DNA of 33,307 bases, taken from contig CACWQW010000014.1 in the NCBI GenBank assembly GCA_902763085.1, positions 1 through 33,307 of the forward strand, in the 5' to 3' direction. Each line of letters starts with the position of its first letter. The stretch's first letter is position 1. The notes beneath the pieces were generated by a model. That model had not been told where the DNA came from and did not search any database. It was given only the letters and a program-made list of their open reading frames with translations. The DNA comes from Dongibacter bovis. Its GTDB lineage: Bacteria > Bacillota > Negativicutes > Selenomonadales > Selenomonadaceae. This document shows, piece by piece, positions 2,124-30,050 of this stretch. A program made the translations under genes and the position numbers.

Positions 2124-3146
2124 TCAGCGGCCCATCTTGAGATTCGTCGCCTTGCCGTCGAATTTCGAGAACGTGTCGAGCGCCTTGCCGCAGCCGAGCG
2201 CCACGCAGGAGAGCGGATCGTCCGCGAGCGACGTCGGGATCTCCGTCTCGCGGCGGATGAGCTCATCGAGCCCGTAGAGCATCGCGCCGCCGCCCGTGAG
2301 GATGATGCCGCGGTCCATGATATCTGCCGAGAGCTCCGGCGGCGTCTCCTCGAGTACCTTCTTCACCTGATCGACGATGCGCGTGACCGACTGGTTCATG
2401 GCGTCTGCCGCCTGTGCCGTCGTGATCGTGAGGTTCTTCGGCAGACCCGTGAGCATGTCGCGCCCGCGGATATCCATCTCCTCGCTGCGCGCCTCGCCGA
2501 ACGCGGCGCCGATGTTCATCTTGATGTCCTCCGCCGTGCGCTCGCCGATCATCATGTTGAACTCGCGCTTGACGTAGGCGATGATGTCCGCATCGAACTT
2601 ATCGCCGGCGATGCGCAGGCTCGCGCTCGTCACGATACCGCCGAGCGAGATCACAGCGATATCCGTCGTGCCGCCGCCGATGTCGACGACCATCGAGCCG
2701 CACGGCTCCACGATGTCGAGGCCCGCGCCGAGCGCCGCCGCGAGCGGCTCCTCGATGAGCTGCGTATGGCGTGCGCCCGCCTGTTCCGCCGCCTCCTGCA
2801 CCGCGCGCTGCTCCACCATCGTGCAGCCCGACGGGATGCAGATCATGATGCGCGGCCGGAACACAAAGCTATGCCCGACGACCTTCTCAATGAAATGGCG
2901 CAGCATGCTCTCCGTGATGTCGTAGTCGGCGATCACGCCCTCCTTGAGCGGACGGATCGCGACGATATTTCCCGGCGTGCGGCCGATCATGCGCCGCGCC
3001 TCCTCGCCGATCGCGAGCACCTGGTTCGTGTCCTTGTCGACGGCGACCACGGACGGCTCGCGCAGCACGATCCCTTTATTCTTCACGTAGATCAGCACAT
3101 TCGCCGTGCCGAGGTCGATTCCGATATCCATAGACATGCCAAACAT
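2124..3146 (-). CDS. mreB: Actin-like rod-shape determinant MreB/Mbl
   Basis: A 340-residue actin-fold ATPase that polymerises under the inner membrane and guides lateral cell-wall synthesis. The phosphate-1 motif DIGIDLGTANVLIYVK lies at residues 7-22, the phosphate-2 motif VVDIGGGTTDIAVIS in the middle, and the adenosine motif ILTGGGAMLYGLDELI near the C-terminus. MreB-typical stretches such as PSVVAVDK and RPLKEGVIADYDITE are intact. The length is normal. Coupling to flgF and flgG downstream resembles the mbl-flhO-flhP group of Bacillus, so Mbl is an equally good name; paralogues cannot be separated from this window alone. A GAGGGGA ribosome site lies about ten bases before the ATG. Confidence 0.93.
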   Translation of the reverse strand: MFGMSMDIGIDLGTANVLIYVKNKGIVLREPSVVAVDKDTNQVLAIGEEARRMIGRTPGNIVAIRPLKEGVIADYDITESMLRHFIEKVVGHSFVFRPRIMICIPSGCTMVEQRAVQEAAEQAGARHTQLIEEPLAAALGAGLDIVEPCGSMVVDIGGGTTDIAVISLGGIVTSASLRIAGDKFDADIIAYVKREFNMMIGERTAEDIKMNIGAAFGEARSEEMDIRGRDMLTGLPKNLTITTAQAADAMNQSVTRIVDQVKKVLEETPPELSADIMDRGIILTGGGAMLYGLDELIRRETEIPTSLADDPLSCVALGCGKALDTFSKFDGKATNLKMGR

Positions 3147-3333: not shown

Positions 3334-3368
3334 AAAAACTGCCAGGCGGTTATGCCATCGCCTGGCAG
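3334..3368 (-). terminator. Rho-independent terminator of the HPr-LDH gene
   Basis: A perfect 10-bp stem (CTGCCAGGCG, 3339-3348, with CGCCTGGCAG, 3359-3368) is followed on the minus strand by a run of five T (complement of 3334-3338). It lies about 35 bases after the stop of the HPr-LDH gene and before the mreB promoter region. Confidence 0.87.
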
Positions 3369-3402: not shown

Positions 3403-4608
3403 TTATTTTACCTCAGCGGCGCCGAGCGGGCAGCCCTCGTTGAAGTTGCGGGCGTTCTCCATCGTCACCGCCGCGATGGCCTGGAGCGCCTCGCGCGTGA
3501 AGAATGCCGCATCCTCGCCCTCGTAGACGTCGAGCGCGACCGCGTGGAACTTGCCCTGCTTGAGCGCAGCGAGCAGCGCCTCCGTGTCGATGAGGCCGCC
3601 GCGCGCGGCGTTGACGAGCATGACATCGTCCTTCATGAGCGAGATGGCCTTCTCGTCGATGAGGTGGTATGTGCCGCCCTCGCCCATGATGAGCGGCGCA
3701 TGGATCGAGATGAGGTCAGACTTGCTCAGGACTTCCTCCTTCGAGGCGTACGTCAGCAGGCCCTCTTCCTCGAGCTTCTTGTTCGGGAACGCATCCCAGC
3801 CGATGACCGTCATGCCGTAGCCCTTGCAAATGCGTGCCATGCACTGGCCGATGCGGCCCGTGCCGAGGATGCCGGCGACCTTGTTGTGGAGGTCGACGCC
3901 GAGCAGGCCCGTGAGATCGAAGTTGTTGTCACGCACCTTGTTGTACGCCTTGTGCAGACGGCGGTTCGCCGCCTGGATCGTCGCCATGGCGTGCTCCGCC
4001 ACTGCGTACGGGGAGTAGGCCGGCACGCGCAGGACCGTGATGCCGTACTCTGCCGCCGCCTTCTTGTCGACGTTGTTGAAGCCGGCGCAGCGCAGGAGGA
4101 TCAGGCGGACGCCGCCGTCGTGCAGCTGCTCGATGACGTCGCGCGGAGCCTCGTCGTTGACGAAGATGCAGACGGCGTCATAGCCATTGGCGAGATGCGC
4201 CGTCTCGCTCGTCAGACGACTCGAGAAATATTTGAGCTCGACGTTGTACGTGCCCTCGCCCTTGTCCTTGGCGAGCTCGCTGAAGTAGAGGCGATCATAG
4301 TCCTTCGTGCCGAAGAAAGCGACCTTGAGGACGGGGACCTTCTTCTCCTTCGGGCCCATGGCGTCGAAGACCGCCTGGATCTTCTGTGCGGCCTCTTCCT
4401 CGTCGGGACCTTCCACCGTCACGTTGACCTTCGCGCCCTTGGCTGCATGGAGGTTCAGGATCTCGAGCACGTTGTTCCCCTGTGCGACTTCATGATCGGA
4501 TTCGAGCGTCACAGCCGCTCGCAGGCTGCTGCATGCCTGCGCGATCTGCGCGGCAGGGCGCGCATGGATACCGAGCGAGCAATTCACGACGACCTGGAAT
4601 TTTTTCAT
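3403..4608 (-). CDS. HPr phosphocarrier domain fused to a D-lactate dehydrogenase-like domain with an internal gap
   Basis: A 401-residue protein with two clear parts. Residues 1-85 are an HPr domain: LGIHARPAAQIAQ places His15 exactly where PEP-dependent phosphorylation occurs, and GNNVLEILNL aligns with the regulatory loop, with Asn46 in place of the Ser46 phosphorylated by HPr kinase. After a short linker (KEKKVP), residues 93-401 match the LdhA-type 2-hydroxyacid dehydrogenases: CIFVND, RCAGFNNVD, the NAD-binding GILGTGRIG (246-254), catalytic Arg336 in NAARGGLID, and Glu in DVYEGE (360-365). The text then jumps from DVYEGEDA straight to AFFTREALQAI, skipping about 31 residues that in E. 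coli LdhA include GHQ with the catalytic His. The frame stays open. The gene has its own promoter, an AGGAGG site and its own terminator, so it is monocistronic. Activity as a lactate dehydrogenase is doubtful as read. Confidence 0.88.
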   Translation of the reverse strand: MKKFQVVVNCSLGIHARPAAQIAQACSSLRAAVTLESDHEVAQGNNVLEILNLHAAKGAKVNVTVEGPDEEEAAQKIQAVFDAMGPKEKKVPVLKVAFFGTKDYDRLYFSELAKDKGEGTYNVELKYFSSRLTSETAHLANGYDAVCIFVNDEAPRDVIEQLHDGGVRLILLRCAGFNNVDKKAAAEYGITVLRVPAYSPYAVAEHAMATIQAANRRLHKAYNKVRDNNFDLTGLLGVDLHNKVAGILGTGRIGQCMARICKGYGMTVIGWDAFPNKKLEEEGLLTYASKEEVLSKSDLISIHAPLIMGEGGTYHLIDEKAISLMKDDVMLVNAARGGLIDTEALLAALKQGKFHAVALDVYEGEDAAFFTREALQAIAAVTMENARNFNEGCPLGAAEVK

Positions 4609-4661
4609 GGATATGATCCTCCTATAGAAAACGAAGCATTTTCATTGATTATTACGAATAA

Positions 4662-4690
4662 ATTATACGACGGGGAGCGTGTGAAATCAA
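4662..4690 (-). promoter_or_regulatory. Sigma-A promoter of the HPr-LDH gene
   Basis: TTGATT (4685-4690), a 17-base spacer and a perfect TATAAT (4662-4667) face the HPr-LDH gene, whose ATG is at 4608. The untranslated leader would be about 45 bases and includes the ribosome site TAGGAGG. Confidence 0.75.
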
Positions 4691-4763: not shown

Positions 4764-6083
4764 TCAGCTCCGGCTCGCCGCGACGGCGGCGAACGCCTTG
4801 CCCGCGGCCTCGATCGTGCGATCGATGTCCTCGTCCGTGTGCGCGCCGCTCATGAAGAGCGTCTCGAACTGGCTCGGTGCGAGGTAGATGCCCTGCTCGA
4901 GCATGCTCTTGAACCAGACCTTGAACGCCTCCTGGTCAGACGCGCAGGAATCGTCGAAATTCCAGACCTCGTGCTCGTTGAAGAAGATGCCGAACATGCT
5001 GCCCGCCTGGTGCGCCTGGATGGCGACGCCCGCCTTCTTCGCCTGCTCCTGCCAGCCGAGCAGGAGCTTCTTCGTCTTGAGCGTGAGCCTTCGGCTGTAG
5101 TCCGACTCGCCAGGCGCAGGCTCCGCCGTGATGATCTTGAGCGTCTCGACGCCTGCCGTCATCGCGAGCGGGTTGCCCGAGAGCGTGCCCGCCTGGTAGA
5201 CGGGACCGGACGGAGAGATCTCCTTCATGATGTCGCGGCGCCCGCCGTAGGCGGCGACGGGCAGGCCGCCGCCGATGATCTTGCCGAGGCAGGTGAGGTC
5301 CGGCGTGATGCCGTACGCCGCCTGCGCACCGCCGAGAGAGGCGCGGAAGCCGCACATGACCTCGTCGAAGATGAGCAGCGTGCCATGCGCCGCCGTGAGG
5401 TCGCGCAGCTTGCGCAGAAATCCCTGCTTTGGCGGCACGCAGCCCATGTTGCCCGCGACGGGCTCGACGATGATGGCGGCGATCTCATCGCCCATCTCGT
5501 CCATGACGCGCGTGATCGCCTCTGCATCGTTATACGGCACCGTGATCGTGTCCTTCGCCGTGCCCTTCGTGACGCCCGGCGAGCTCGGCACGCCGAACGT
5601 CGCCATGCCGCTGCCGGCATTCACGAGCAGGCTGTCGCTGTGACCGTGATAGCAGCCGATGAACTTGACGATCTTCTCGCGCCCCGTGTAGCCGCGCGCG
5701 AGGCGCAGCGCGCTCATCGTCGCCTCCGTGCCGGAGTTCACCATGCGGATGAGCTCGATGGAGGGATAGACGCTCTGCACGAGCTTCGCGAGCTCAGACT
5801 CGACGACGGTCGGCGCGCCGTAGCTCGTGCCGCGCGTCACCGCCTCCTGCAGTGCCCGGACGACGTTCGGGTGCGCATGGCCGACGACCATCGGCCCCCA
5901 GGAGCCGACGTAGTCGATGTATTCGTTGCCGTCGATGTCAAAGATGCGGTCGCCCTCGGCACGCGCAATGAACGGCGGATTGCAGTCGACATTCGCATAC
6001 GAGCGCACGGGACTGTTGACGCCGCCCGGCATGAGCTGCTTGGCCTCCTCGAAGGCCGCGAGGGATTTTTCCAGATGTAACAT
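4764..6083 (-). CDS. hemL: Glutamate-1-semialdehyde 2,1-aminomutase
   Basis: HemL converts glutamate-1-semialdehyde to 5-aminolevulinate, the last step of the C5 route that begins with glutamyl-tRNA reductase (hemA, upstream in the same operon). The 439 residues contain the class-III aminotransferase features: MPGGVNSPVRSY near the N-terminus, NSGTEATMSALRLARG for PLP phosphate binding, FDEVMCGFR, and the PLP lysine in CLGKIIGGGLPVAAYGG. Length is normal for the family. The start has AGGAGAGG close upstream and lies 16 bases after the doc stop codon, so an inserted toxin-antitoxin pair separates it from hemB while keeping it in the same transcription direction. No lesion is seen. Confidence 0.96.
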   Translation of the reverse strand: MLHLEKSLAAFEEAKQLMPGGVNSPVRSYANVDCNPPFIARAEGDRIFDIDGNEYIDYVGSWGPMVVGHAHPNVVRALQEAVTRGTSYGAPTVVESELAKLVQSVYPSIELIRMVNSGTEATMSALRLARGYTGREKIVKFIGCYHGHSDSLLVNAGSGMATFGVPSSPGVTKGTAKDTITVPYNDAEAITRVMDEMGDEIAAIIVEPVAGNMGCVPPKQGFLRKLRDLTAAHGTLLIFDEVMCGFRASLGGAQAAYGITPDLTCLGKIIGGGLPVAAYGGRRDIMKEISPSGPVYQAGTLSGNPLAMTAGVETLKIITAEPAPGESDYSRRLTLKTKKLLLGWQEQAKKAGVAIQAHQAGSMFGIFFNEHEVWNFDDSCASDQEAFKVWFKSMLEQGIYLAPSQFETLFMSGAHTDEDIDRTIEAAGKAFAAVAASRS

Positions 6084-21068: not shown

Positions 21069-22556
21069 TTACCAGCCCATGACCTTCGAGACGGCATTCT
21101 GCCATCCATCATAGAGCGCGCAGCGCTGATCCTCGCTCATCTGCGGCTCGTAGCGAATCCCCTCATGCCAGAGGTCTTTGAGCTCTTCGACGTCCTTCCA
21201 GATGCCCATGGCAAGCCCAGCGAGATAGGCAGCGCCGAGGCCCGTCGTTTCCGTCGTGTAGGCGCGGATGACAGGCATGTTGAGGATGTCCGCCTGGAAC
21301 TGCATGAGCAAGTTGTTCTGCGCCGCACCGCCGTCGACCTTGAGCTGCGAGATCGGGGCCGCGACATCAGAGGCGAGCGCCTCGTAGACATCGCGCACCT
21401 GATAGGCGAGCGCCGCGAGCGCTGCGCGGATGATGTGCGCGCGCTGCGTGTCCTCCTTGAGTCCGATGATCATCCCCGAGGTCTTCGTATCCCAGTAGGG
21501 CGCAGACAGCCCACGGAACGACGGCACGAAGTACACGCCGCCCGTATCGGGCACGAGCTTCGACACCCATTCGGAATCCGGCATCGACTTTAAGATGCCG
21601 AGCCCATGCTTGAGCCATTCGAGGCTCGAGCCCGAGACGAGCATGCTGCCCTCGAGCGCGTACGTCACATCGTCGCCGATGGCCCAGGCGATCGTCGTGA
21701 TGAGGCCGTTCTGCGAGTGGATGATCTCCTTGCCCGTATTCATGAGGAGGAACGAGCCCTCTCCATACGAGTTTTTCGCCTCTCCCTTCTCGAAGCACGC
21801 CTGTCCGAAGAGATCCGCCTGCTGATTGCCGATGCACGCGGCGATGGGAATCGCCGCACCGAACCGCGTCGCATCCGTATAGCCGTAGAGGTGGCTCGAC
21901 GGATGCACCTCCGGCAGCATCGCGCGCGGAATGCGCAGATGGCGCAGGATCTCATCGTCCCAGCAGAGGTGCTTGAGGTGGAAGAGCATCGTGCGCGACG
22001 CGTTCGAGTAATCCGTCGCGAAGATCTCGCCCCCCGAGAGCTTCCACATGAGCCAAGTATCGATCGTGCCGAAGCAGAGGTCTCCCTTCTCCGCCATCTC
22101 CCGCGCGCCGAGCACATTGTCGAGCAGCCAGCAGATCTTCGTCCCGGAGAAATACGGATTGAGCACGAGCGACGTCTTCTGCCGGATCTCCTCCTGATAT
22201 CCCTGCTCCCGCAGATGCTCGCAGATGGGCTCCGTCTGCCGCGACTGCCAGCTGATGGCGGGATAGAGCGGCCGCCCCGTCTGACGGTTCCAGATGACGG
22301 TCGTCTCGCGCTGGTTCGTCACGGCGATTGCCGCCACCTCGCGGCTGTCGATGGCCGCGAGGCGCAGCGCCTCACGTGCCGTCCAGAGCTGCGTGCTCCA
22401 GATCTCCTCCGCATCCTGCTCGATCCATTCGGCATGCGGGGTGAACGTGCTGATCTTCTTTTCCGCGTAAGAGATCATCTCACCGCTGCGGTTGAATACG
22501 ACCGAGCGGTTCTTCACGGTACCGGAATCCAGTGCCAAGATATATTTTTTCTGCAT
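21069..22556 (-). CDS. Glycerol kinase paralogue with altered active site (FGGY family)
   Basis: A 495-residue FGGY carbohydrate kinase, close to GlpK over its whole length: NQRETTVIWN (R83, E84), [53 protein letters not shown] and [21 protein letters not shown]. Key positions differ. The phosphate-binding DQGTTSSR of GlpK reads DSGTVKNR (residues 10-17), and the catalytic-base motif GDQQ reads GNQQ, with Asn244 in place of Asp. The neighbouring glpK (23755-25263) keeps GDQQ and AGTTSNR. The paralogue may therefore be inactive or act on another substrate. ATG 22556 is chosen for AGGAGA just upstream; the frame is open to 22814, but that part crosses a terminator and a promoter. The gene is separated from glpF by a terminator and has its own -10. 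Confidence 0.88.
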   Translation of the reverse strand: MQKKYILALDSGTVKNRSVVFNRSGEMISYAEKKISTFTPHAEWIEQDAEEIWSTQLWTAREALRLAAIDSREVAAIAVTNQRETTVIWNRQTGRPLYPAISWQSRQTEPICEHLREQGYQEEIRQKTSLVLNPYFSGTKICWLLDNVLGAREMAEKGDLCFGTIDTWLMWKLSGGEIFATDYSNASRTMLFHLKHLCWDDEILRHLRIPRAMLPEVHPSSHLYGYTDATRFGAAIPIAACIGNQQADLFGQACFEKGEAKNSYGEGSFLLMNTGKEIIHSQNGLITTIAWAIGDDVTYALEGSMLVSGSSLEWLKHGLGILKSMPDSEWVSKLVPDTGGVYFVPSFRGLSAPYWDTKTSGMIIGLKEDTQRAHIIRAALAALAYQVRDVYEALASDVAAPISQLKVDGGAAQNNLLMQFQADILNMPVIRAYTTETTGLGAAYLAGLAMGIWKDVEELKDLWHEGIRYEPQMSEDQRCALYDGWQNAVSKVMGW

Positions 22557-22596
22557 AAAATCTCTCCTGCCCTGCATTCTGACTGCTCCAGCCAAT

Positions 22597-22617
22597 ATGT
22601 ATACACGTCTTATTATA
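22597..22617 (-). promoter_or_regulatory. -10 element and operator-like half-site for the glpK paralogue
   Basis: A perfect TATAAT (22612-22617) is followed by CGTGTATACAT (22597-22607). CGTGTAT also forms each arm of the palindrome over the glpA promoter at 30051-30068, so both may answer to the same regulator. The -35 is not clear. Confidence 0.45.
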
Positions 22618-22641
22618 CCATAACCTGACAAAATCTTACAT

Positions 22642-22761
22642 AAAAAAAGAGACGTTTGCACCGCTTCACTGAAAACTTCGGGACGCTCCGCCAAAAACGC
22701 GACGAAGTCACGATCTAGGACGAGCAATCTTCGTCCCCAAATGCGCCTCTTCCCTTTTTTT
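22642..22761. other. Symmetric structured element flanked by T-runs
   Basis: An outer stem (AGAGACG, 22648-22654, with CGCCTCT, 22744-22750, one G-T pair) encloses two further stems: ACTTCG/CGAAGT (22675-22680 with 22703-22708) and GGACGA/TCGTCC (22718-22723 with 22731-22736). Seven A precede it (22642-22648) and seven T follow shortly after (22755-22761), so either strand could terminate or form a compact RNA. It contains the 12-mer GGACGCTCCGCC (22681-22692) also found at 14862-14873. Confidence 0.45.
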
Positions 22762-22764
22762 GAC

Positions 22765-22806
22765 AAAAAAAAGTGGAAGTTTTCCGAACGAATCGGGAAA
22801 CTTCCA
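22765..22806 (-). terminator. Rho-independent terminator after glpF
   Basis: A stem of GGAAGTTT with AAACTTCC (22775-22782 with 22798-22805), extended by four weaker pairs, is followed on the minus strand by eight T (complement of 22765-22772). It ends the glpA-to-glpF operon. Confidence 0.88.
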
Positions 22807-22899
22807 AACAACAAGGGATAAAAGAGGGGTAATCAAGCCTTAAAATTGGGAGATGTAAAATGATTTATAGCAAACCCGCTTGCGCAGGTAGCTACCAGA

Positions 22900-23754: not shown

Positions 23755-25278
<1,524 letters not shown>

Positions 25279-29922: not shown

Positions 29923-30050
29923 CGGCGCCTCCTTATGAATTTGCAAACAATTCACGAAAGAATGATAGTAACGACAACCTCACGGTATCGTTCGTGCTCT
30001 CAAAACGTTCTTTCCTTGTTTTCCTCGGATTCGGAACGTTATTTCGTTTA

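Follow-up and report, generated by a model that had tools for sequence, protein, structure and literature searches.

An HPr phosphocarrier domain fused to an LdhA-type D-lactate dehydrogenase in Selenomonadaceae and other gut and rumen bacteria

The window analyzed here, a 33,307-nucleotide stretch of Dongibacter bovis (Selenomonadaceae; contig CACWQW010000014.1), carries a minus-strand gene (positions 3403 to 4608) in which an HPr phosphocarrier domain is joined to an LdhA-type D-lactate dehydrogenase (D-LDH). The open reading frame list and the sequence give a single unbroken frame of 401 codons plus stop, from ATG to TAA, while intact relatives have about 432 codons. Residues 1 to 84 (4357 to 4608) form the HPr domain with its invariant GxHARP motif, including the codons for His15 (4564 to 4566), the residue phosphorylated in HPr, and for Asn46 (4471 to 4473), which occupies the Ser46 position in the fusion alignment and in the alignment to HPr from the Protein Data Bank (PDB). 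This domain matched PTS-HPr (PF00381) at residues 3 to 81 (72.5 bits against a cut-off of 23; E value, 3.1e-20) and TIGR01003 (70.1 bits against 47.9), and a PDB sequence search matched residues 1 to 85 to HPr/NPr. A linker (residues 85 to 93; 4330 to 4356) follows, at the end of which, at the equivalent of residue ~94, unfused LDHs begin.

The LdhA-type domain comprises residues 94 to 401 (3403 to 4329) and is incomplete near its C terminus. Pfam identified the catalytic domain (2-Hacid_dh, PF00389) at residues 111 to 392 (1.3e-29) and the NAD-binding domain (2-Hacid_dh_C, PF02826) at residues 209 to 367 (6.5e-44), and no EI or IIA domain of the phosphoenolpyruvate (PEP)-dependent sugar phosphotransferase system (PTS) was found by Pfam in the protein. 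From residue 93 onward, the closest solved proteins are the fermentative D-LDHs of Fusobacterium, Escherichia coli, and Salmonella; LdhA of Fusobacterium nucleatum (5z21) and E. coli (5z1z; EC 1.1.1.28) are the best PDB matches by both sequence and fold. AlphaFold modeled both domains well (mean pLDDT, 86). The preliminary description of this locus, which reported such a fusion in one frame with one promoter and one ribosome site, is thus borne out by the Pfam and PDB matches and by the sequence.

The HPr-LdhA fusion is real. Its frame is conserved in some 80 or more other species, in which the intact protein has about 432 amino acids, and a fusion by chance is thereby ruled out. A chimeric assembly or a missed stop codon between the domains was considered and rejected, as cultured strains carry the same fusion (Mitsuokella multacida DSM 20544, M. 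jalaludinii DSM 13811, Sharpea azabuensis DSM 18934, and Lactimicrobium massiliense). A species-level scan of genome contigs, with one genome per species, returned at least 80 fusion loci among 182 confirmed candidates; the fusion covers the full length in 79 of the 80 loci returned, the remaining one being cut by a contig end. Carriers include Selenomonas, Mitsuokella, many rumen Lachnospiraceae, Sharpea, Lactimicrobium, Floccifex, and Faecalibacillus. Within the family of the window, the fusion was found in 9 of 189 genomes, and within that of Lachnospiraceae strain KH1T2 in 11 of 299. It was not found on plasmids, where matches stayed below 60% identity and those listed spanned the LDH part only.

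The gene appears to form a transcription unit of its own, flanked by hemL (4764 to 6083) and an mreB-like gene (2124 to 3146), both named from their translations. An AGGAGG ribosome-binding site (4618 to 4623, minus strand) lies nine bases before the ATG, and a promoter scan placed one sigma-70-like site, TTGATT-17-TATAAT, upstream at 4662 to 4690 on the same strand, against 0.4 sites expected. Downstream (3334 to 3368, minus strand), an intrinsic-terminator-like element was read from the sequence as a ten-base inverted repeat, CTGCCAGGCG..CGCCTGGCAG, followed by T5; its 10-base loop exceeds the limit of the scan used. Elsewhere in the window, glycerol kinase-like genes (21069 to 22814 and 23755 to 25263) flank a glycerol facilitator-like gene, and glpA/B/C-like genes, likewise named from their translations, adjoin this cluster up to position 29955.

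Between positions 3507 and 3508 (minus strand), exactly 93 bp (31 residues) that all fused relatives have are missing from the window copy. The preliminary description gave a 401-residue protein and overlooked this gap. The missing residues include the HQ of 'TSHQAFFTREAL', whose His, the catalytic histidine of the family, aligns with that of 'TSHQAYFTKEA' in the Fusobacterium D-LDH. As this histidine of the 'HQA(F/Y)FT' motif is absent, the window copy as assembled should be inactive as a dehydrogenase. Among the 78 intact relatives aligned, the corresponding H397 is invariant, as is R336, both positions having been assigned by alignment with solved D-LDHs. The junction shares just one base, and a repeat-mediated deletion was accordingly rejected.

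The gap is probably an assembly fault and the window copy an assembly-damaged form of an intact gene, since similar deletions occur in ptsH and other genes of the same assembly (2.19 Mb in 104 contigs, 88% complete). Other clean gaps were seen in a flgG-like gene (22 bp), in ptsH (71 bp), and in a gene encoding an HPr-PAS-sigma-54 activator protein (44 bp). None is a multiple of 3, so that the frames of conserved genes are broken, which suggests systematic deletions in this assembly. The flgG-like gene, encoding a flagellar rod protein, lies in the window itself (310 to 1133), where it is read in two frames with the gap after base 646 relative to genome G005. The ptsH gene of the same genome, on contig 56 (L254:5300-5660), is out of frame and is intact in close relatives. 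Alternatively, the window copy could be a real variant that lacks catalytic activity and is retained as an HPr or NAD-binding regulator, as the deletion is in frame, the remainder of the protein is intact, and the copy has a low dN/dS (ratio of nonsynonymous to synonymous substitution rates). However, the deletion occurs in this assembly only, and gaps that break the frame in three more genes are what a faulty draft assembly would be expected to contain; we regard a genuine dead variant as very improbable.

In a phylogeny of LDH domains, all 94 fused sequences group in a single clade (SH-like support, 0.93) that adjoins unfused ones. Eight of the nine fusions in the family of the window, from five genera, are at least 90% identical, and the ninth (G377) is 63% identical. 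This high identity across genera, together with the nesting of these sequences inside those of Lachnospiraceae and Erysipelotrichia, points to horizontal gain of the fusion by this family. The HPr tree, in which the E. coli and Bacillus subtilis HPr sequences serve as a guide only, places the fused HPrs as sister to a group of free HPrs of the Lachnospiraceae type, far from Selenomonadaceae ptsH. Five free HPrs (L195, L203, L206, L207, and L208) form a clade close to the fused ones; they retain His15 and have Lys, Arg, or Ala at the Ser46 position.

In genomes G091 (L157) and G517 (L224), a free hpr gene immediately precedes a close unfused ldhA gene on the same strand, at a spacing of roughly 85 to 105 bases, and the HPrs encoded by these two hpr genes group with those of the fusions. 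Separate hpr and ldh genes in relatives had been named beforehand as a finding that would speak against the fusion. They do exist as this neighboring pair in two genomes, while many relatives are fused; this mixed outcome strengthens the link between HPr and LDH. The split pair could be either the ancestor or a split descendant of the fusion, tree supports being low at this point.

Sequence conservation in the HPr domain is concentrated at the phosphorylation site. His15, which the window copy had been correctly described as keeping, was present in all 95 rows checked, 84 of them aligned fusions and 11 further rows; a few species are represented by two rows. Arg17 was present in all 84 aligned fusions. 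Across 78 aligned fusions, G13 and the motif His15-Ala16-Arg17-Pro18 belong to a small set of invariant columns in the domain and cluster at the active site. Summed pairwise dN/dS values within the Selenomonadaceae group were 0.09 for HPr and 0.05 for LDH, indicating purifying selection on both domains. The HPr part could nevertheless be a passive folding or stability appendage without any PTS function, as it is more variable than the LDH part (dN mostly 2 to 6 times that of LDH) and few of its columns beyond the active site are invariant. However, the invariant residues are precisely those of the phosphorylation site and its surroundings, which makes such a role improbable. The LDH part also has features limited to fusions, including a three-residue insertion at positions 308 to 310, Tyr201, and Trp271, which are candidates for contacts with HPr.

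The Asn reported at the Ser46 position of the window copy is no peculiarity of that copy, Ser being lost in nearly all other fusions. The 84 aligned fusions have Asn (75), Asp (8), or Arg (1) at this position; among the further rows, Glu was found once, and the divergent L156 and L183 retain Ser. With Ser46 lost, the fused HPr of hosts that possess an HPr kinase would be cut off from the kinase/CcpA branch of regulation. Such hosts include strain KH1T2 (G060; 376 bits) and Sharpea (G061; 328 bits). In Selenomonadaceae, searches that included the 88% complete window genome detected no HPr kinase with PF07475 (0 of 7 genomes) or TIGR00679 (0 of 6), although the B. subtilis control gave no signal either and the absence is therefore not absolute. 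The earlier proposal that the fused HPr escapes modification by HPr kinase hence holds for kinase-bearing hosts such as Sharpea, is moot in Selenomonadaceae, where no kinase was found in seven genomes, and does not extend to L156 and L183.

Each of the 14 fusion genomes tested had a single copy of the fusion and no other LdhA-type enzyme, the next paralogues being about 29 to 37% identical. Free HPr was also present in the fusion genomes examined. In Mitsuokella (G016), ptsH adjoins ptsI, the gene for enzyme I, so that a phosphate donor exists. As the fusion genomes examined also carry free HPr, the fused HPr would not be needed for sugar transport and most probably serves the LDH. It might instead be an ordinary phosphocarrier between enzyme I and the EIIA proteins, with LDH merely its chance partner, which would fit the intact HARP motif and the purifying selection on the domain. 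However, free HPr is available in these genomes, a PTS operon context is absent, and the HPr-LDH partnership occurs in split form too; together these make a simple carrier function rather unlikely.

Upstream of ptsH-ptsI in Mitsuokella and relatives, and directly adjoining them, lies a gene for a 569-amino-acid protein with HPr, PAS, sigma-54 activator, and helix-turn-helix domains. This is a second kind of HPr fusion, whose partner is a transcription activator. It was found at L253:2301-4007 (G016), L139, and L141, and a broken copy is present on contig 56 of the window genome (L254:3436-5104).

We propose, with a probability of about 0.5, that the fused D-LDH is controlled through, or docked to, enzyme I of the PTS by its HPr domain at His15. 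Judged from sequence, the HPr domain on D-LDH probably couples the formation of lactate to sugar transport in many bacteria of the gut and rumen. The protein is predicted to be a fermentative D-LDH (pyruvate + NADH to D-lactate) in which the HPr module would serve as a covalent sensor of the PTS. Enzyme I would dock on the fused HPr and phosphorylate His15, and LDH activity would be set by the phosphorylation state of His15 or by docking itself. During inflow of PTS sugars and at high pyruvate, the HPr domain would be mostly unphosphorylated and the LDH would run, while at high PEP and scarce sugar, the phosphorylated domain would damp it; the sign of this switch is a guess. We give slightly less than even odds to the more specific proposal that PEP/pyruvate status switches D-lactate formation via phosphorylation of the fused HPr by enzyme I, and that spread of the gene lets rumen and gut Firmicutes couple lactate overflow to sugar uptake.

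Enzyme I makes pyruvate from PEP, and pyruvate is the substrate of LDH; docking would therefore place the LDH beside a pyruvate-releasing enzyme. This also favors a role of the HPr domain mainly as a handle for docking, bringing LDH to enzyme I or EII complexes, with phosphorylation incidental. The HPr active-site residues needed in docking are invariant, and the LDH part is otherwise that of an ordinary soluble D-LDH. However, an invariant, phosphorylatable His15 exceeds the need of a handle, and free HPr competes for the same site. We consider a purely tethering role unlikely, albeit the least so of these alternatives.

Several observations weigh against control of the fused D-LDH through enzyme I. 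The fusion gene has no conserved neighbors beyond closely related loci that would provide a PTS operon context, and the window copy, between hemL and the mreB-like gene, lies outside any PTS operon. In the KH1T2 family, more than 100 other genomes have an unfused LdhA homologue that starts at the equivalent of residue ~94. In the split pair, Pro18 of HPr is replaced by Cys and position 46 is Gln; given Cys18, this HPr may differ in behavior.

The fused domain shares with HPr, the ptsH product (PF00381/TIGR01003), its fold, His15 site, Arg17/Pro18, and length. It differs in not being free-standing, in having Asn or Asp at the Ser46 position in nearly all cases, and in forming, together with the HPrs of the split pair, an HPr group of its own. 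Compared with LdhA, whose catalytic Arg and His are kept in intact fusions, the fusion adds the N-terminal HPr and linker, the insertion near 308 to 310, and other residues found only in fusions. Multiphosphoryl transfer proteins (FruB/FPr, DhaM, and similar) likewise contain HPr within a multidomain protein; there, the partners are PTS proteins (EI or IIA), as in the described HPr fusions (PMC2405797), whereas HPr is joined here to an enzyme of metabolism. In E. coli, the enzymes PykF, PfkB, NagB, and Adk are bound and regulated by HPr in trans (PMC8167557). This is direct regulation of central carbon enzymes, but it is noncovalent, in contrast to the covalent pairing with D-LDH. In agreement with the preliminary description, no HPr-LDH fusion was found described in a literature search, which is weak evidence of absence because subscription journals lay mostly outside it. 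Overall, known parts appear here in an apparently undescribed covalent pairing that makes clear physiological sense.

The presence of the fusion in many gut and rumen lineages with an invariant His15 suggests that D-LDH is a real target of HPr, and the fusion offers a one-protein system for testing the action of HPr on D-LDH. The fusion further defines a group of D-LDHs in which the additional domain can readily escape notice if naming follows the LDH domain only. In a Sharpea azabuensis genome, the sole LdhA is the fusion. The PTS and D-LDH genes of this species are highly transcribed in low-methane sheep, with a 12-fold rise that roughly matches the increase in reads for the genome as a whole (PMC5069950). 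With Sharpea and Mitsuokella among its carriers, the fusion occurs in organisms of an environment, the rumen, in which D-lactate matters for both acidosis and methane yield.
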